From the NCBI RefSeq assembly GCF_022095675.1, contig NZ_JAHYSG010000018.1, forward strand, positions 62,001 through 126,000: 64,000 nt of DNA. The letters are read 5' to 3'. This DNA comes from Dactylosporangium sp. AC04546 (GTDB lineage Bacteria > Actinomycetota > Actinomycetes > Mycobacteriales > Micromonosporaceae). Positions 5,620-30,716 of this stretch are shown in pieces (position 1 is the stretch's first letter; each line of letters starts with the position of its first letter). A program made the position numbers and the translations under genes. Below the pieces are notes generated by a model that was given only the letters and a program-made list of their open reading frames with translations, had not been told where the DNA came from and made no database searches.

Positions 5620-7463
5620 AGCGTGGTCGCCAGACGGTCGGCAAGGAGGCGGGTGAAGCGGGCCGGGTCGGTCAGGTCGCCACCCTCGGCCAGCAGCGCC
5701 AGGCTGTAGAGCAGCTCGGCCGTCTCGTCGAGCCTTGCTGAAGCAGCGTCGGCCGCGTGAGCGGTGCGCAGGCCGGTCACCAGCGGGTGGGCCGGGTTGA
5801 GCTCCAGGATCCGCTTGGTGTGTGGAAGCTCCTGGCCCATCGCGCGGTACATCTTCTCCAGCGTCGGCGTGATGTCGTGCTCGTCGCCCACGATGCAGGC
5901 CGCCGAGGTGGTGAGGCGGGACGTCAGCCGGACCTCCTTGACGTCGTCCGCGAGCCGGGTGCCGAGCCAGCTCAGCAGCGGCGCGAAGTCGGCGGCCTGC
6001 TCCTCGGGGATCTCCGACTCGCCGAGGTCGACCTTGCCCTTGGCGACCGACTGCAGCGGCTTGCCCTCGAACTCGGTGACCCGCTCGACCCACACCTCGT
6101 CGACCGGGTCGGTGAGGATGAGCACCTCGTAGCCCTTGGCCAGGAACGCCTCCAGGTGCGGCGACTTCTCCACCATGGCCCGCGACTCGCCGGTCATGTA
6201 GTAGATGTCCGTCTGGCCGTCCTTCATCCGCTCGACGTACTCCGCGAGCGTGGTCGACTCGGCCGCCGTCGACGTGACCTGGAGCAGCTCCAGCAGGGTG
6301 TCCTGGTTCTCGGCGTCCTCGAGCAGGCCCTCCTTCAGCGGGCGGCCGAACTCGGTCCAGAACGTGCCGTACTTCTCGGCGTCGTTGGCCTTGATGTCCT
6401 TGAGCGTGCCGAGCACCTTCTTGACCAGCCGCCGCCGGACCGCCTGGATCTGCCGGTCCTGCTGGAGGATCTCGCGCGAGATGTTGAGCGACAGGTCGTG
6501 GGCGTCCACAACGCCCTTCACGAAGCGGAGGTACTGCGGGATCAAAGCCTCGCAGTCGTCCATGATGAACACCCGCTTCACGTACAGCTGCACGCCACGC
6601 TTGCCGTCGCGCGTGAACAGGTCGAACGGCGCGCGGGCGGGGACGAAGAGCAGCGCCTCGTACTCGAAGGTGCCCTCCGCCTTCATGTGGATCGTCTCGA
6701 GCGGGTCGGTCCAGTCGTGGCTGACGTGCTTGTAGAACTCGTGGTACTCGGCGTCGCTGACCTCGCTGCGGGGCCGCGCCCAGAGCGCCTTCATCGAGTT
6801 GACCGGGTCCGAAGCGCCGTCGAGCCGGATCGGCCAGGCGATGAAGTCGGAGTACCGCTTGACGATCTCGCGGATCTTCCAGTCGGCCGTGTAGTCGAAG
6901 AGCTGGTCCTCGGTGTCCTCCGGCTTGAGGTGCAGGGTGACCGAGGTGCCCTGCGGGGCCTCCTCCAGCGTCTCGATCTCGTAGGTGCCCTCGCCGCTGG
7001 ACTCCCAGAAGGTGCCCTGGCTCTCCCCCGCCTTGCGGGTGACCAGGGTGACCCGGTCGGCGACCATGAACGTCGAGTAGAAGCCGACGCCGAACTGGCC
7101 GATGAGCTCCTGCGAGGTGCCGGCGTCCTGGGTCTCGCGCAGCTTGCGCAGCAGCTCGGCGGTGCCCGACTTGGCGATCGTGCCGATGAGCGACACGACG
7201 TCCTCGTGCGACATGCCGATGCCGTTGTCGCGGACGGTCAGCGTGCGCGCTTCCTTGTCGATCTCCAGCTCGATGTGCAGGTCGTCCGTGTCGACCTGGA
7301 GCTCCTTGTTGATCAGCGACTCGAGGCGGAGCTTGTCCAGCGCGTCGGACGCGTTCGAGATCAGCTCGCGCAGGAAGATGTCCTTGTTCGAGTAGATCGA
7401 GTGGACCATCAACTGCAGGAGCTGCCGCGTCTCGGCCTGGAACTCCAGCGTTTCCCTGCTCAC
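5616..7463 (-). CDS. htpG: Chaperone HtpG (bacterial Hsp90)
   Basis: The 615-aa protein starts at GTG 7463 after GGAAGGGG (VSRETLEFQAETRQLLQLMV). The N-terminal GHKL ATPase domain shows the Bergerat-fold motifs ELISNASDALDK, DNGIGM and IGQFGVGFYS. The middle domain has the client/ATPase segment ..YVKRVFIMDD.. and the catalytic-loop sequence ..LNISREILQQ... The C-terminal dimerisation domain is complete, and the length fits bacterial HtpG. It is an ATP-driven chaperone acting in the cytosol. No HspR (HAIR) or CIRCE element was found in the 114-bp upstream gap, so heat regulation is not visible here. Confidence 0.97.
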   Translation of the reverse strand: MSRETLEFQAETRQLLQLMVHSIYSNKDIFLRELISNASDALDKLRLESLINKELQVDTDDLHIELEIDKEARTLTVRDNGIGMSHEDVVSLIGTIAKSGTAELLRKLRETQDAGTSQELIGQFGVGFYSTFMVADRVTLVTRKAGESQGTFWESSGEGTYEIETLEEAPQGTSVTLHLKPEDTEDQLFDYTADWKIREIVKRYSDFIAWPIRLDGASDPVNSMKALWARPRSEVSDAEYHEFYKHVSHDWTDPLETIHMKAEGTFEYEALLFVPARAPFDLFTRDGKRGVQLYVKRVFIMDDCEALIPQYLRFVKGVVDAHDLSLNISREILQQDRQIQAVRRRLVKKVLGTLKDIKANDAEKYGTFWTEFGRPLKEGLLEDAENQDTLLELLQVTSTAAESTTLAEYVERMKDGQTDIYYMTGESRAMVEKSPHLEAFLAKGYEVLILTDPVDEVWVERVTEFEGKPLQSVAKGKVDLGESEIPEEQAADFAPLLSWLGTRLADDVKEVRLTSRLTTSAACIVGDEHDITPTLEKMYRAMGQELPHTKRILELNPAHPLVTGLRTAHAADAASARLDETAELLYSLALLAEGGDLTDPARFTRLLADRLATTL

Positions 7464-17242: not shown

Positions 17243-18766
17243 TCATTCGGTGGCGGGCACCAGCGGGGCGTCCACCTCCATCCGGTGCAGGTACAGCCGC
17301 CCGTCGAGGTGGTCGATTTCGTGTGCCACCAGCCGTGCGAGCGGACCGCGATACACCTCGATGAAACGCGTGCCGTCGGAGCGTGAGCTCTCGACCGTCA
17401 CGGTGCGGGACCGGCGCACGAGGCCGCGGACGTCGTAGAACGACAGGCAGCCCTCGAACTCCTCGTCGGTCTCGTCCGACTGGTCGACCAGGCGCGGGTT
17501 GAGCAGGACGATCTGCTCCGCGCCGGGCTCACCGGACCGGATCACCGCCGCCGCCAGGCTGTCGCCGACCTGGGGGGCCGCCAGGCCCACCCCGCGCACG
17601 AAAGGGTGCAGCGCCTCGACCCGGTCGAGGGCCGTGGACAGCTTGTCGACGACCTCGGCGGCGCGCGCCGACTCACCGGGCAGGTCGAGCGGGCGGACCT
17701 GCCGGTCGAGCACGTTCTCACCGCGCTGGAGCACGCCGGCGTCGCGGACGGCGTCGGTGGACGACGACTGCGCGTACGGCGGCTCCTCCCAGTCGTCGGG
17801 CTGCTCGACGGCGCCGACGGGCCGGGTGCCCCGGAAGCGCCACTCCAGGCGGTAGCGGTCGTGCAGCGCGGTCGTCTCGGTGTGCCACGAGAAGACCGCC
17901 CGGCCGTCCGCGGACAGCTCCTGGGTGATCGGGGTGCGCAGCGGCACCTCCTCGGCCGACAGCGTCGTCTGCACGCCCCAGACCACCGGCCGCATCCGCG
18001 CCGGGAACTCGACCTCGATGGTGAGCTGGCGGGTAGGCAGGCGCACCGAGCGCTGGAACCAGTGGCCCCACTTCTCGACGCTGATGTGCCACGAGTACGC
18101 GATGGTGGTCCGCTGGCCCGGGTACAGCGGGAAGCGGCCCTGCGCGTTCTCGAAGAGCAGCCACGCCTCCTTGAGCGCGTCGCGGTCGGTCTTGGACCGC
18201 CACTCCATGGGCTCCCCGGCGCACGAGGCCACCAGCGCGAGCTCGTCCCAGGACAGCGGATGGTCGCGGTGGTGGCGGTTGGAGCGCGCAGGGTCGTCCG
18301 GGTAGCGGTCGACCGAGATCCGGACCAGGTACCGAGTGATCGGTTCCGTGCCGGCGTTGTAGAGCGCACGGCGGACCGTGCACCGGTACTTGCCGTCGAC
18401 GTAGGACAGCCGGGCGGTCTCCCGCTCCACGACCAGTCCGGTGCCGGGCGGCAGCCACTGGTCCGGGACGGGCGGGTCGCGGCCCGGCAGCCCGACCCGG
18501 CTGCGGGCCGTGGCGCGCAGCTCGTCGTACTCCTTGTACCGCTGCCAGATGGCCCCGCCGCTCTGCAGGATCGCCTCCGCCCGGCGGGCGAAGTCCTCGG
18601 TGGGGCGGTGGCGGCGCGCCTCGACGTGGCTGACGTACGACGCGTCGAAGCCCATGGCGGCGGCCAGCTGCTTCTTGGACATGCCACGATCCACGCGCCA
18701 CCGCGCGAACTCCGCGACGAACGCCTCAGACGCCCGCTGCACGGGAGAAGAGTCGCTCGTGGTCAT
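17243..18766 (-). CDS. XRE-type HTH - beta domain - peptide deformylase fusion
   Basis: The 507-aa protein has three parts. Residues about 12-70 form an XRE-type helix-turn-helix (..MSKKQLAAAMGFDASYVSHVEA..). Residues about 105-320 form a Trp-rich, beta-rich domain of unknown function (..AYSWHISVEKWGHWFQRSV..). Residues about 360-500 form a complete deformylase with GVGLAAPQVG, EGCLSF (Cys440) and HEIDH (His482, Glu483, His486). The fusion suggests a DNA-binding regulator whose output or sensing depends on a deformylase domain (inference). The next gene downstream is another deformylase-like protein. The upstream gap is shared with the divergent iron-regulated gene at 19096. Confidence 0.88.
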   Translation of the reverse strand: MTTSDSSPVQRASEAFVAEFARWRVDRGMSKKQLAAAMGFDASYVSHVEARRHRPTEDFARRAEAILQSGGAIWQRYKEYDELRATARSRVGLPGRDPPVPDQWLPPGTGLVVERETARLSYVDGKYRCTVRRALYNAGTEPITRYLVRISVDRYPDDPARSNRHHRDHPLSWDELALVASCAGEPMEWRSKTDRDALKEAWLLFENAQGRFPLYPGQRTTIAYSWHISVEKWGHWFQRSVRLPTRQLTIEVEFPARMRPVVWGVQTTLSAEEVPLRTPITQELSADGRAVFSWHTETTALHDRYRLEWRFRGTRPVGAVEQPDDWEEPPYAQSSSTDAVRDAGVLQRGENVLDRQVRPLDLPGESARAAEVVDKLSTALDRVEALHPFVRGVGLAAPQVGDSLAAAVIRSGEPGAEQIVLLNPRLVDQSDETDEEFEGCLSFYDVRGLVRRSRTVTVESSRSDGTRFIEVYRGPLARLVAHEIDHLDGRLYLHRMEVDAPLVPATE

Positions 18767-25492: not shown

Positions 25493-26647
25493 GTGACGCA
25501 CGTGGATGAGCGCGCCGAGAAGGCCGGTGAGACCGGCCAGGGCAGCACCCCCGAGCGGCAGCTGTGGACCGCCGGCAACGGCAGGAGCCGCCGACGCACC
25601 GTGACCTACGCGGACGCGGGCGTGTCGATCCACGCCGGCGAGAAGGCCGTCGAGCTGCTCCGCACCAAGGTGCACCGGACGCACCGGCCCGAGGTGATGG
25701 GCGACATCGGCGGGTTCGCCGGGTTGTTCAAGCTCGACCTGAAGAAGTACAAGAGCCCGATCCTCGCCTCCTCGACCGACGGCGTGGGCACCAAGCTCGC
25801 CATCGCGCAGGCCATGGGCATCCACGACACCGTCGGCATCGACCTGGTGGCGATGGTCGTCGACGACCTGGTGGCCTGTGGCGCCGAGCCGCTGTTCCTG
25901 CTCGACTACATCGCCTGCGGCGAGGTCGTGCCGGACCGGGTGGCCGAGATCGGCGCCGGCATCGCCGACGGCTGCCGCTACGCCGGCTGCGCGCTGCTGG
26001 GCGGCGAGACCGCCGAGCACCCCGGCGTGATGCGCCCGGACGAGTACGACATCTCCGGCACCGGCGTCGGCGTCGTGGAGGAGGACGCGATCCTCGGCCG
26101 CGACCGGGTCGAGGTCGGCGACGTGGTCATCGCGCTGCGCTCCACCGGCCTGCACTCCAACGGCTACTCGCTGGTCCGCCACGTGCTGCTCGGCGCCGGC
26201 CGGATGCGCCTCGACAGCGTCATCGACGAGTTCGGCAAGCAGCGCACGCTCGGCGAGGAGCTGCTCACCCCGACCCGCATCTACGCGAAGGACTGCCTCG
26301 ACCTCATCAAGGAGGCCGACATCCACGCGTTCGCGCACGTCACCGGCGGCGGCATCCCGGGCAACCTGGTCCGCGTCCTGCCCGAGCACGTCGACGCGGT
26401 CGTCGACCGCGCGACCTGGCGCCCGCAGCCCATCTTCGAGCTCGTGCGCACCAAGGGGCGCATCGAGGACTCCGAGATGGAGAGCACCTTCAACATGGGC
26501 GTCGGCATGATGACCGTCGTCTCGGCCGAGGACGCCGACCGGTCGCTCGCCTTCCTGGCCGGCCGGGGCATCGACGCCTGGCAGGTCGGCGAGGTCATCG
26601 AGGGCACCGGGACCGTCCAGATGGTCGGTTCCCACACGCGCGGCTGA
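25493..26647 (+). CDS. purM: Phosphoribosylformylglycinamidine cyclo-ligase PurM (AIR synthase)
   Basis: The 384-aa protein starts at GTG 25493 after AAGGGGAGA. It has the AIR-synthase signature: ..TYADAGVSIHAGEKAVELL.., ..SSTDGVGTKLAIA.., ..GGETAEHPGVM.. and ..HVTGGGIPGNL... It closes FGAM to aminoimidazole ribonucleotide with ATP in purine synthesis, as part of the pathway set purF, purM, purB, purS, purQ and purL found in this window. A strong hairpin at 26655 ends the unit. An N-terminal extension of about 35 residues precedes the catalytic core. Confidence 0.97.
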   Translation: MTHVDERAEKAGETGQGSTPERQLWTAGNGRSRRRTVTYADAGVSIHAGEKAVELLRTKVHRTHRPEVMGDIGGFAGLFKLDLKKYKSPILASSTDGVGTKLAIAQAMGIHDTVGIDLVAMVVDDLVACGAEPLFLLDYIACGEVVPDRVAEIGAGIADGCRYAGCALLGGETAEHPGVMRPDEYDISGTGVGVVEEDAILGRDRVEVGDVVIALRSTGLHSNGYSLVRHVLLGAGRMRLDSVIDEFGKQRTLGEELLTPTRIYAKDCLDLIKEADIHAFAHVTGGGIPGNLVRVLPEHVDAVVDRATWRPQPIFELVRTKGRIEDSEMESTFNMGVGMMTVVSAEDADRSLAFLAGRGIDAWQVGEVIEGTGTVQMVGSHTRG

Positions 26648-26654
26648 GTGAGCA

Positions 26655-26686
26655 CCGGCGGGGCGCCGACCAGAGCGCCCCGCCGG
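26655..26686. terminator. Strong hairpin downstream of purM
   Basis: A perfect 12-bp GC stem (CCGGCGGGGCGC with GCGCCCCGCCGG) and an 8-nt loop begin 7 bases after the purM stop. It separates purM from the RiPP genes. Confidence 0.7.
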
Positions 26687-26789
26687 AATGCGCGAGATAC
26701 GCCTGTTTGATCATCCGGGGCTTACCGCGATAGAGCATTGGACCTAGGCTGGAGCGACACGTCCCTATATCCAGGAGGAGGACGGGGCG

Positions 26790-27896
26790 GTGTCGTGGAG
26801 CGGCATGCGGGGAATCTCTCCGATCCCGGGTTATGTCGTGCTTCAGCCCACAACCCTGTGCAATCTCGACTGCACGTACTGTTACCTTCCCTTCCGTGCG
26901 CGTAACGACCGGATGAGCCCTGCGGTCGCCGCGGCGGTCGCCGAGTCGGTGAACCCGTGGGCGGCGGCCGACGAGCGCTTCTCGGTGGTCTGGCACGGCG
27001 GCGAGCCGCTGACCGCCGGCCGGGCGGCCCTCGCCGAGCTGATGGCGCCGTTCGCCGGCGTCGAGCACCACGTCCAGACCAACGCCACGCTGATCGACGA
27101 CGCGTGGTGCGAGTTCTTCCTCGAGCACCGGATGCGCGTCAGCGTGAGCGTGGACGGGCCGGAGGAGCTCAACGCGTACCGGGTGAATCGTGGGGGCGCT
27201 CCGGCGTACCGAAGCGTCGCGACGGGAATCGAGACGCTCAAGCGACATGGTGTGCCCTTCTCGGCACTGTGTGTGGTCAGCGAACCACGCGAGAACCTCG
27301 CCGAGCGGCTCTATGCCTACTTCCTCGACCTGGGCTGCGACGTGCTCGGGATCAACATCGAGGAGCAGGAGGGCGTCAACGCCCGCGCGAACGCGTTCGG
27401 CGCCGACGCCGTCCGGGCGTTCTGGGCCGAGCTCGTCGCGGCCTGGCGGCGCGATCCGCGAATCCACGTGCGCGAGATCGAGTGGACGCTGCGGTACGCC
27501 GGTGCCGTGCTCGACGGCACCGCCGACGGCATCCTGCCGGCCACGCTCGACCCGATCCCGACGGTCGCCACCGACGGGCGGGTGTTCCTGCTCTCGCCCG
27601 AGCTCGCCGGGTTCACCGACGCACGCTACGGCGACTTCTCCTCCGGCAGCGTGCTGACGACCCCGCTGGCGACGATCCTGGCCGGCGCGGCCACGTCGGC
27701 GGCGTGGGTGCCGGAGTACCTGCGGGGCGTCGAGGCGTGCCGGACGAGCTGCCCGTACTTCGGGTTCTGCGGCGGCGCGCACGCGGCCAACCGCTACTTC
27801 GAGCACGGCAGGTTCGACACCACCGTGACGAACCACTGCCGGAACAGCAAGATTCGCCTTCTGGAGGGAGTGCTGGACCATGCCGGAGCACGCTGA
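26790..27896 (+). CDS. amcB: Cyclophane-forming radical SAM/SPASM peptide maturase (AmcB-type)
   Basis: The 368-aa protein starts at GTG 26790, about 9 bases after AGGAGGAGG. The radical SAM cluster is Cys24, Cys28 and Cys31 (TLCNLDCTYCYLP). A GGEP motif follows (..VWHGGEPLTAG..). The C-terminal SPASM-like region has cysteines in ..EACRTSCPYFGFCGGAHAAN.. and ..TNHCRNSK... The enzyme should use S-adenosylmethionine to link aromatic side chains to residues two positions away in the precursor encoded by the overlapping next gene. The assignment to AmcB rests on the precursor, the overlap and the fold; family-level confidence is high, the symbol less so. Confidence 0.85.
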   Translation: MSWSGMRGISPIPGYVVLQPTTLCNLDCTYCYLPFRARNDRMSPAVAAAVAESVNPWAAADERFSVVWHGGEPLTAGRAALAELMAPFAGVEHHVQTNATLIDDAWCEFFLEHRMRVSVSVDGPEELNAYRVNRGGAPAYRSVATGIETLKRHGVPFSALCVVSEPRENLAERLYAYFLDLGCDVLGINIEEQEGVNARANAFGADAVRAFWAELVAAWRRDPRIHVREIEWTLRYAGAVLDGTADGILPATLDPIPTVATDGRVFLLSPELAGFTDARYGDFSSGSVLTTPLATILAGAATSAAWVPEYLRGVEACRTSCPYFGFCGGAHAANRYFEHGRFDTTVTNHCRNSKIRLLEGVLDHAGAR

Positions 27897-28077
27897 CCCG
27901 GTCACCGAGCGCGTCTACGAGGCCGCGAGCGGCCTTCGTGTGTTGCTCGAGGAGGCCGCCGCGGCACGGGCCGCCCGCGCAGAGGCGAGCGGAGAGGACG
28001 GCGCAAGCGCTGTCTGTGCCTGGAACCACTTCGAGAACATCCCGACGTTCTACAACTGGAACAACCGTCCCCGTTGA
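27880..28077 (+). CDS. amcA: Multiple cyclophane-containing RiPP precursor (AmcA-type)
   Basis: The 65-aa peptide starts at ATG 27880, inside the last 17 bases of the maturase gene, after GGAGGGAG. Residues 1-44 are a helical, Ala/Glu-rich leader (..RVYEAASGLRVLLEEA..). The tail holds W48-N-H, F51-E-N, F57-Y-N and W60-N-N, four aromatic-x-(Asn/His) triplets of the kind cyclised by triceptide maturases. It ends RPR. A Cys at 46 directly precedes the core. No protease, transporter or immunity gene is adjacent. The number of rings actually formed cannot be read from the sequence. Confidence 0.82.
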   Translation: MPEHADPVTERVYEAASGLRVLLEEAAAARAARAEASGEDGASAVCAWNHFENIPTFYNWNNRPR

Positions 28078-28096
28078 CGGCACCAGTTACGCCGAG

Positions 28097-28142
28097 ACAC
28101 CCGCACGTTGACCGTCGAGAGCACGGTGCAGCGTGCGGGTGT
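28097..28142. terminator. Hairpin downstream of the RiPP precursor
   Basis: An 11-bp stem (ACACCCGCACG with CGTGCGGGTGT) closes a 24-nt loop and is followed by TT. It lies 20 bases after the precursor stop. Confidence 0.6.
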
Positions 28143-28155
28143 TTGCACACGACTC

Positions 28156-28181
28156 GGGCACGTGGGGTTGTCCACGTGCCC
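28156..28181. terminator. Second, symmetrical hairpin between amcA and the DUF3073 gene
   Basis: A perfect 10-bp stem (GGGCACGTGG with CCACGTGCCC) encloses GGTTGT. A third small stem (GTTGACC/GGTCAAC, 28191-28208) overlaps the DUF3073 stop. Together they can end transcription from both sides. Confidence 0.6.
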
Positions 28182-28203: not shown

Positions 28204-28437
28204 TCAACGACCCCGTGAGCGCCAATCGTCGTCACTGGAGGGGTCGGTGTAGTTGCCGTCGTCCTCGTCGTCAGCCTCTTCGTCGACTTGATCGCCATAC
28301 TCGGCGTAGTCGTCGCGTGACTTAGGGCTGCCCGCCGCGAGCTCGCGCTGCAACGCGTCGAGGTCGGTGTTTGGGGAGTGATACTTCAACTCCCTGGCCA
28401 CCCTAGTCTGCTTGGCCTTCGCACGGCCGCGCCCCAT
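28204..28437 (-). CDS. DUF3073 domain-containing protein
   Basis: The 77-aa protein starts at ATG 28437 after GAGGGGG; a frame start six codons upstream lacks conservation. It opens MGRGRAKAKQTKVAREL-like (here ..QTRVARELKYHSPNTD..), the DUF3073 hallmark, and ends in an acidic tail (..DEEADDEDDGNYTD..). The family is confined to actinobacteria and has no assigned function. It sits between purM and the valine dehydrogenase gene, its usual place in this lineage. Confidence 0.92.
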   Translation of the reverse strand: MGRGRAKAKQTRVARELKYHSPNTDLDALQRELAAGSPKSRDDYAEYGDQVDEEADDEDDGNYTDPSSDDDWRSRGR

Positions 28438-28644
28438 GGCTCGACCCCCTCGCACAGAATTACGGGGCAGCCATTACCGGCAGGCCCCGACAACGTCAGG
28501 CATCTCTCGTGGCTCTTACGGTACATGTCGCGGGCACCTTTCGGCATCTCGCCCCTACCGACCATTTCGGTGGCGTTGCTTACCCGACCGGTCTGGTTGG
28601 GTAAGCACCACCGTCCCGCCTTGGTCGTCACGGGCCCGCGACGG

Positions 28645-29876: not shown

Positions 29877-30716
29877 GTGCCGTCGCTCTTCGCGTCATAC
29901 CTGCGGGTGTACGAGCCGCTGGCCGCCTTCGACCGCGACCACCAGTTGTACTGGCGTCGCTACGTGAAGGAGGGTCGTGCGGTCGCGCTCTCGGACGGCC
30001 CCGGCCGCCAGCGCACCGCGGTCCTGGAGGCCCTCGGTGCCGGCTGGACGCGCCTGCCCGACCTGCCGGACGAGGCCTACGTGCTGGAAGCGGACGACAC
30101 GCTTCTGGTCTGCCCGTGGAACCTGCGCATCCGGGTGGCCGAGGCGGCGCTCACCGCCCGCGACGGGGTTCCCAGCGTCATTGCCGACGCGTTTGTACCG
30201 CCGGTGCTGGCCGGCCTGGCGCAGACCGTCGTCGACGACTGGCGCAGCGGCGACCACGTCCTGGAGCGGGGCCTGCCCCGCGTGCACGAACAGGTCGCGA
30301 CGTGGGGCGTGCCGCTGCGCTGGTTCGTCTTCGTCGACCTGGAGGAGCGTGAGTTGTCGCTGCGCCCCGGCCGGCGGGTGCTGCGCTACCGCACCGAGAT
30401 CTCGAAGGCCCGCCGTCGCGCCCACCGGGCCTACGCCGTGCTGCGCAGAGCCATAGGAGATGCGCCGATCACGGTGGCCGTGGAGGAGACGGCGCGGTGG
30501 CTGGAGGAGTTCCACTCCCGCTCGATCGTCGAACTGGACTACGGCGGCCTCGTGCACCTGATGTCCGACGACGCGCTGGCGATGGACGACTCGCCGGGGC
30601 TGGTCTCGGCGGGGCTGTCGAACGTGGCCCGTGGCGACGCCGACGCCGCCACCGAGGTCTACGAGAAGCTCGTCGAGCGCTGGCGGGCCGTCCAGCTCCT
30701 GGAGCGCTGCAACTAA
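29877..30716 (+). CDS. Conserved actinobacterial hypothetical protein between vdh and bldC
   Basis: The 279-aa protein starts at GTG 29877 (VPSLFASYLRVYEPLAAFD..). No known domain was recognised. It has a mixed composition without membrane segments or a signal peptide. The middle contains ..PLRWFVFVDLEERELSL.. followed by ..RYRTEISKARRRAHRAY.., and a C-terminal helical part ends ..VERWRAVQLLERCN. Position between vdh and bldC is, as I recall, conserved in Streptomyces. A 25-bp stretch upstream (29788-29812) resembles one before purM. Confidence 0.8.
   Translation: MPSLFASYLRVYEPLAAFDRDHQLYWRRYVKEGRAVALSDGPGRQRTAVLEALGAGWTRLPDLPDEAYVLEADDTLLVCPWNLRIRVAEAALTARDGVPSVIADAFVPPVLAGLAQTVVDDWRSGDHVLERGLPRVHEQVATWGVPLRWFVFVDLEERELSLRPGRRVLRYRTEISKARRRAHRAYAVLRRAIGDAPITVAVEETARWLEEFHSRSIVELDYGGLVHLMSDDALAMDDSPGLVSAGLSNVARGDADAATEVYEKLVERWRAVQLLERCN

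Follow-up and report, generated by a model that had tools for sequence, protein, structure and literature searches.

The precursors of PQQ and mycofactocin belong to RiPP units with conserved cores that are kept in core metabolism, and dedicated enzymes process them to small redox cofactors. Judging from its title, a 2022 study by Phan and Morinaka (ACS Chem Biol 17:3284) reportedly describes a group of radical SAM/SPASM triceptide maturases that is prevalent in actinobacteria, and this group may be the AmcB family. Among the papers listed in searches by name and by core string, none concerns AmcA/AmcB as a cyclophane system, overlap with that 2022 study being possible. For the GrrM/OscB triceptide maturases, OscB is reported in the available part of PMC11002830 to form W-to-N/D and F-to-N rings between residues i and i+2. 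ChlB (PDB 9gm3 and 9gmc), the chemistry of which is taken here from titles only, goes by the name 'multiple cyclophane synthase' in the title of a reference cited in PMC12636437. The closest described system is that of the maturase AmcB (NF041718) and its precursors AmcA type 3a (NF041722), type 3b (NF041723) and type 1 (NF041721), where the NCBIfam names are annotations; the literature match for AmcB and cyclophane concerns, by its title, synthetic C-H activation (PMC10311463).

The window analysed here, a 64,000-nucleotide stretch of Dactylosporangium sp. AC04546, contains the two-gene unit amcBA on the + strand. The first gene, amcB (26790..27896), starts with GTG and encodes a 368-aa radical SAM peptide maturase with a PF04055 match, and amcA (27880..28077) encodes a precursor peptide of 65 aa; the two overlap by 17 nt, and the ORFs, lengths and overlap given in the initial annotation agree throughout with the ORF coordinates. 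The flanks it had named were also recovered by profile matches, with purM upstream (25493..26647, + strand; TIGR00878, 445.3 bits) and DUF3073 downstream (28204..28455, − strand; PF11273, 82.7 bits), both of which are context outside the unit. Upstream, purM is accompanied by purF (profile match); downstream, DUF3073 and a Glu/Leu/Phe/Val dehydrogenase run in the opposite direction and are followed by a 279-aa ORF (orf279) and bldC. The product of orf279 (window 29877–30716, + strand) has no Pfam or NCBIfam match, and the gene accompanies this block in most loci, as it also does in several genomes outside the family.

The maturase scores 489.1 bits against the AmcB equivalog model (cut-off 425; E 7.3e-147), aligning with model positions 2–361 of 362, and the precursor scores 113.6 bits against the AmcA_3a model (cut-off 65; E 4.8e-33) over positions 1–58 of 58, which rules out chance. 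Since both cut-offs are passed, and enzyme and precursor adjoin, amcBA is an ordinary member of an already named multi-cyclophane RiPP family and no new class; no difference from the described AmcB/AmcA system was found. The second-best family of AmcB is GrrM/OscB (TIGR04261), yet its 234.3 bits lie below the cut-off of 310, and the scores for FxsB (TIGR04269, 87.6 bits, cut-off 370) and XyeB (TIGR04496, 61.5 bits, cut-off 450) are lower still, so that membership in these three families was rejected. The comparison with these four profiles, which had been proposed as a check, thus supports the multiple-cyclophane RiPP unit claimed from the DNA, as does the conservation of the type 3a motifs described below. 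The closest named relatives of AmcB are from Dactylosporangium species (94, 88 and 83% identity, records from the same genome being possibly omitted).

In an AlphaFold (AF2) model of AmcB (mean pLDDT 81.8, pTM 0.84), pLDDT falls below 50 at residues 22–29, the loop bearing the first two cysteines. The best PDB match of the model is ChlB (TM 0.72, ∼20% identity over the fold match), followed by the anaerobic sulfatase maturase (TM 0.66–0.68), the sactipeptide maturase 5why and, lower, SuiB; three PDB entries match by sequence, ChlB and the anaerobic sulfatase maturase among them. The family match together with ChlB as the best fold match makes cyclophane chemistry the best reading. Cys24, Cys28 and Cys31, noted beforehand, do form a CxxxCxxC radical-SAM motif, present in 80 of the 81 rows of an alignment that includes the window (the exception has a gap there), and Cys107, 317, 321, 327 and 350 occur in 81/81 rows and Cys183 in 80/81. 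SPASM radical SAM enzymes carry two auxiliary 4Fe-4S clusters and a full seven-cysteine pattern. In AmcB, cysteines are evident for the radical SAM cluster and for a single auxiliary set (Cys317/321/327/350); the first Cys pair of the full SPASM pattern was not seen in the 81-row alignment and a Pfam scan of AmcB returned no SPASM domain. The radical SAM part of the original 'radical SAM/SPASM' assignment therefore holds, while its SPASM part is uncertain, since a single full set of auxiliary-cluster cysteines is evident.

Four candidate ring sites are found in the type 3a core: W48-H50, F51-N53, F57-N59 and W60-N62. The aromatic positions had been placed correctly in the initial annotation, and of its four consecutive triplets the two abutting pairs stand; the four are not all consecutive, I54-P55-T56 separating one pair from the other. 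The layout is that of a triceptide unit, in which a radical SAM maturase adjoins the precursor, and all four aromatic-x-acceptor triplets are kept in the 73 type 3a loci examined. The aromatic-x-Asn motifs are thus conserved in type 3a relatives when precursor tails are aligned, as had been suggested, and the loss of these motifs among homologues, which had been named as evidence against the reading, was not seen. In the sister type 3b (nine distinct genomes by our own count) the core reads W-R-P/A-F-E-D-x-F-P-T-F-Y-Q/E-F-T/S-N, with the W missing in 3 of the 9: sites 2 and 4 persist, their acceptors being D and N, the acceptor at site 3 is Q/E, and site 1 is either W-R-P/A or lost. The rings listed in the available part of PMC11002830 are W-to-R/N/D, F-to-N/S, Y-to-D/R and H-to-A/R, and W-to-His is absent from this list. 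Because site 1 is missing in type 3b and W-to-His is absent from that partial list, the sequences favour three rings over four, with a fourth (W48-H50) possible; some of the candidate sites may thus form no ring.

The chemistry of radical SAM RiPP enzymes is diverse, and AmcB might make another bond, such as an epimerisation, an ether or a thioether at C46, with only some of the sites becoming cyclophanes. The invariance of C46 in the 73 type 3a loci speaks for this; however, the cores read for type 3b contain no Cys, and AmcB has named cyclophane formers as its best family and fold neighbours, which makes this reading quite improbable.

A core was recognised in 77 of 80 named loci, 73 of type 3a and four of type 3b, the loci in which the recognition pattern found none being L098, L105 (at a contig end) and L106. 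The 22-residue core AVCAWNHFENIPTF(Y/F)NWNNRPR is kept in 73 of these 77; in the window it corresponds to residues 44–65, AVCAWNHFENIPTFYNWNNRPR (28009..28074, + strand), as delimited by conservation in the 73 type 3a loci. These span 20 named genera, counted from record titles, and one family-level MAG. Across them 21 of the 22 residues are invariant, Y58 is replaced by F in 5/73, and a single core has an additional terminal Gln. All 50 precursors read from family genomes have the same core, one of them with an additional Ser ahead of the last Arg; they comprise the top 30 and bottom 20 scorers among 143 matches over the cut-off, and some come from genomes that are also among the named loci. 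Pairwise identity averages 99.4% in the core, compared with 77% in AmcB, 85% in PurM and 86% in PurF. Stretches of 22 residues as conserved as the core (mean majority share ≥0.995) make up 1.5% of those in PurM and 0.6% in PurF, and none was found in AmcB, the dehydrogenase or orf279. When 1500 random pairs from the 73 loci are pooled, pN/pS is 0.011 for the core (pS 0.37) versus 0.57 for the leader, with 5 of the 73 leader rows extended upstream by a mis-called start. Purifying selection on the AmcA core is very strong, and it acts on the protein: synonymous sites vary (pooled pS 0.37), and conservation of the core at the DNA level was rejected for this reason. The invariance could stem in part from constraint between enzyme and substrate, and it would also be compatible with an antibiotic whose target is fixed. 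A second precursor copy in the window's own genome was also rejected, the next match after amcA having an E-value of 0.064.

Outside the core, the leader positions L, L, AR, R and E are invariant in the 73 loci, a pattern compatible with a recognition helix. The same positions, together with the lack of a RiPP-type protease gene among the 13 neighbour genes scanned, could be taken to mean that the modified 65-aa AmcA remains an uncleaved small protein with its cyclophane tail as a binding face. The variable length of the leader and its pN/pS are, however, as expected for a leader that serves recognition only, and we consider the uncleaved form unlikely.

Within Micromonosporaceae, AmcB scores over the cut-off in 158 of 200 genomes. 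It does so in 19 of 41 mixed relatives, all 19 within the family. Across the phylum the cut-off is passed in 2 of 396 genomes, again both from the family, in a search that scored at most four candidates per genome among the results listed and therefore does not prove absence outside the family; each of these counts includes the window's own genome. AmcA_3a exceeds its cut-off in 143 of these 200 Micromonosporaceae genomes, and a threshold of E ≤ 0.001 brings the number to 149, each with a single match. At class level, where up to 25 candidates were scored, the count is 3 of 246 genomes, all within the family and the window's own included. At E ≤ 1e-50, AmcB is absent from 40 of the 200 family genomes, which fall in genera g12 (22 genomes), g5 (5), g13 (4) and g291 (2), with one genome each in g8, g14, g15, g277, g286, g284 and g273, 20 of the 40 having been assigned by elimination. 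The genomes from g284 and g273 are drafts, 82 and 86% complete, and their congeners have amcB. Eleven AmcB-positive genomes are without an AmcA_3a match. Precursors were read in three of them: G015 and G454 have type 3b precursors, and G456, a 94% complete draft within the family, has a type-1-like unit only; the other eight are G438, G448, G453, G468, G475, G487, G493 and G506.

Gene order around the unit is conserved across the family. The full order purF-purM-amcB-amcA-DUF3073(−)-dehydrogenase(−)-orf279-bldC is seen in 67 of the 80 named loci, and amcB lies between purM and DUF3073 in 72. Two of the other eight stop at a contig edge; in four (three Catellatospora and one Catelliglobosispora) purF and purM have moved and are inverted and amcBA remains by DUF3073, and in two from Hamadaea the DUF3073-bldC block is inverted and amcB remains by purM. 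Signs of vertical descent are also found in the distances between AmcB proteins, which correlate with those of purM (r 0.856), orf279 (0.825), the dehydrogenase (0.768) and purF (0.747); a recent horizontal insertion of amcBA was rejected given how closely they track purM and orf279. In a midpoint-rooted tree of two neighbour proteins, 77 AmcB loci form one group with the 16 placed AmcB-lacking loci all outside, which amounts to one change by parsimony. As the 77 loci were chosen for having AmcB, 16 of 18 fetched lacking loci were placed and several supports range from 0.51 to 0.80, a single gain is the simplest reading, short of proof. Taken on these sequence comparisons, amcBA is best regarded as an old trait of a single bacterial family, passed on vertically. 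The initial annotation had described purM and DUF3073 as adjacent or nearly so in Streptomyces; among 12 genomes of other families, in which Streptomyces was not singled out, the gap is 61–332 nt in six, in line with this description, and 763–5240 nt in the other six, at variance with it, and there is no match to amcB or amcA at E 1e-3. Because the pairing of purM and DUF3073 exists in other families without amcBA, the unit seems to be the later entrant, having joined an older neighbourhood long ago.

Conservation also extends to the region upstream of amcB. A promoter-like element of amcBA (26721..26750, + strand) consists of a −35-like CTTACC, 18 nt and a −10-like TAGGCT. The string TAG[CG]CTG occurs in 48 of 81 regions upstream of amcB (mononucleotide-shuffle mean 2.0, maximum 7), and aligning on the −10, which is possible for 57 of the 81, brings out a −35 resembling TT-x-ACC at 18 nt, together with a TGG that is conserved in the spacer; a general sigma-70 scan found no promoter at this element. 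The terminators reported on both sides of the unit stand as strong GC-rich hairpins, and not as T-run terminators, a scan for which found none at either flank. The first hairpin follows purM (26649..26694, + strand; −34 kcal/mol and z −6.05 for the fold of 26645–26700), and the second lies between the convergent amcA and DUF3073 (28095..28144, with no strand assigned), the fold of 28078–28160 giving −45.1 kcal/mol (z −4.71) on the + strand and −38.9 (z −2.44) on the − strand; both are without a T-run. The start of amcA lies inside amcB in most loci, mostly by 17 or 32 nt, and this overlap of stop and start suggests that translation of enzyme and substrate is coupled.

The initial annotation's remark that no export, protease or immunity gene is nearby holds for the 13 neighbour genes that were scanned in the 17.2–33.2 kb part of the window (a subset of the ORFs there), none of which belongs to a RiPP-type peptidase, exporter or immunity family; they include one carboxypeptidase-regulatory-like domain, one FhuF-like domain (named for ferric iron reductase/transporter) and, at 17243–18766 (− strand), an ORF that combines a helix-turn-helix with a peptide deformylase domain.

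Taken together, we put at about 0.8 the probability that AmcB cross-links AmcA into a rod-like peptide of three or four rings with a conserved role in, or for, the producer. As a member of the cyclophane-forming radical SAM group, AmcB most likely binds the helical AmcA leader and would then form C-C bonds from the aromatic ring of residue i to the side-chain beta carbon of residue i+2, with predicted sites at F51-N53, F57-N59 and W60-N62 and possibly at W48-H50. The predicted product would be a rod-like peptide with three or four small rings, and a protease encoded elsewhere would probably remove the leader. We propose that the product has a conserved role, in the producer or for it, because the core is frozen, descent is vertical, the promoter-like element is conserved and no exporter, protease or immunity gene is found among the 13 neighbours; it may act there as a signal, a cofactor or a structural ligand rather than as a variable antibiotic.

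The main rival is a fixed-target antibiotic: an antimicrobial triceptide that uses a general transporter and a general protease and whose core is fixed as its target is fixed. Antibiotic cores usually vary between species, which speaks against it, as do the single AmcA match per genome across the family, AmcB distances that track purM, the conserved promoter-like element and the lack of an immunity or export gene among the 13 neighbours scanned. In its favour, other three-residue-ring peptides have this activity: in the available parts of these sources, dynobactin (PMC11002830) and darobactin (PMC9055067) are antibiotics, and both are described as having well understood biological activities (PMC12257519). 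Weighing both sides, we regard the antimicrobial as doubtful. The bioactivities of triceptides are themselves described as not yet elucidated in the accessible text of PMC12257519.

Distribution, descent and the frozen core would fit a product with a conserved partner in or on the producer. Tentatively, and at somewhat less than even odds, AmcA may be a housekeeping RiPP: type 3a would go back to a single gain at the base of the main Micromonosporaceae clade, with hardly any losses since, its 22-residue multi-cyclophane core would be frozen by a conserved producer partner and the product would stay a rigid polycyclic peptide. If true, AmcA would be comparable to the PQQ and mycofactocin precursors, but without processing to a small cofactor; the dedicated processing enzymes of those systems were not seen among the amcBA neighbours. 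A two-gene unit with a family-wide fixed peptide is a clean place to learn what such a peptide does for its producer, offering two deletable genes, one predicted product and many species.

Several related arrangements were observed. In some other genomes, type 1 precursors (FDN, WDN and FDS triplets) pair with a second AmcB of ∼40% identity; in Micromonosporaceae this second AmcB occurs with type-1-like, FDN/WDN-rich precursors at L111–L120, L128 and L001, and the short loci L111–L120 and L128 contain no purM or DUF3073 match. The precursor at L106, ending in FTTQFTEFSNRPR, is divergent and matches no NCBIfam AmcA model at E ≤ 0.1. In L098, from a Dactylosporangium MAG, amcB reads in frame at about 5900–6250 into a leader-like and core-like tail ending in TYYNWNNRSR, which is either a natural fusion of enzyme and substrate or a frameshift or assembly error with a reduced core.

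Small RiPP units may have landed repeatedly in the interval between purM and DUF3073. At the same site in L169 (genus g13), which is without amcBA, there is an ATP-grasp ribosomal peptide maturase (TIGR04187, 404.9 bits, cut-off 350) preceded by a small ORF, and L164, also of g13, has a similar ORF by eye. The interval is ∼3 kb in both L169 and L164, and that of L172 is of like size.
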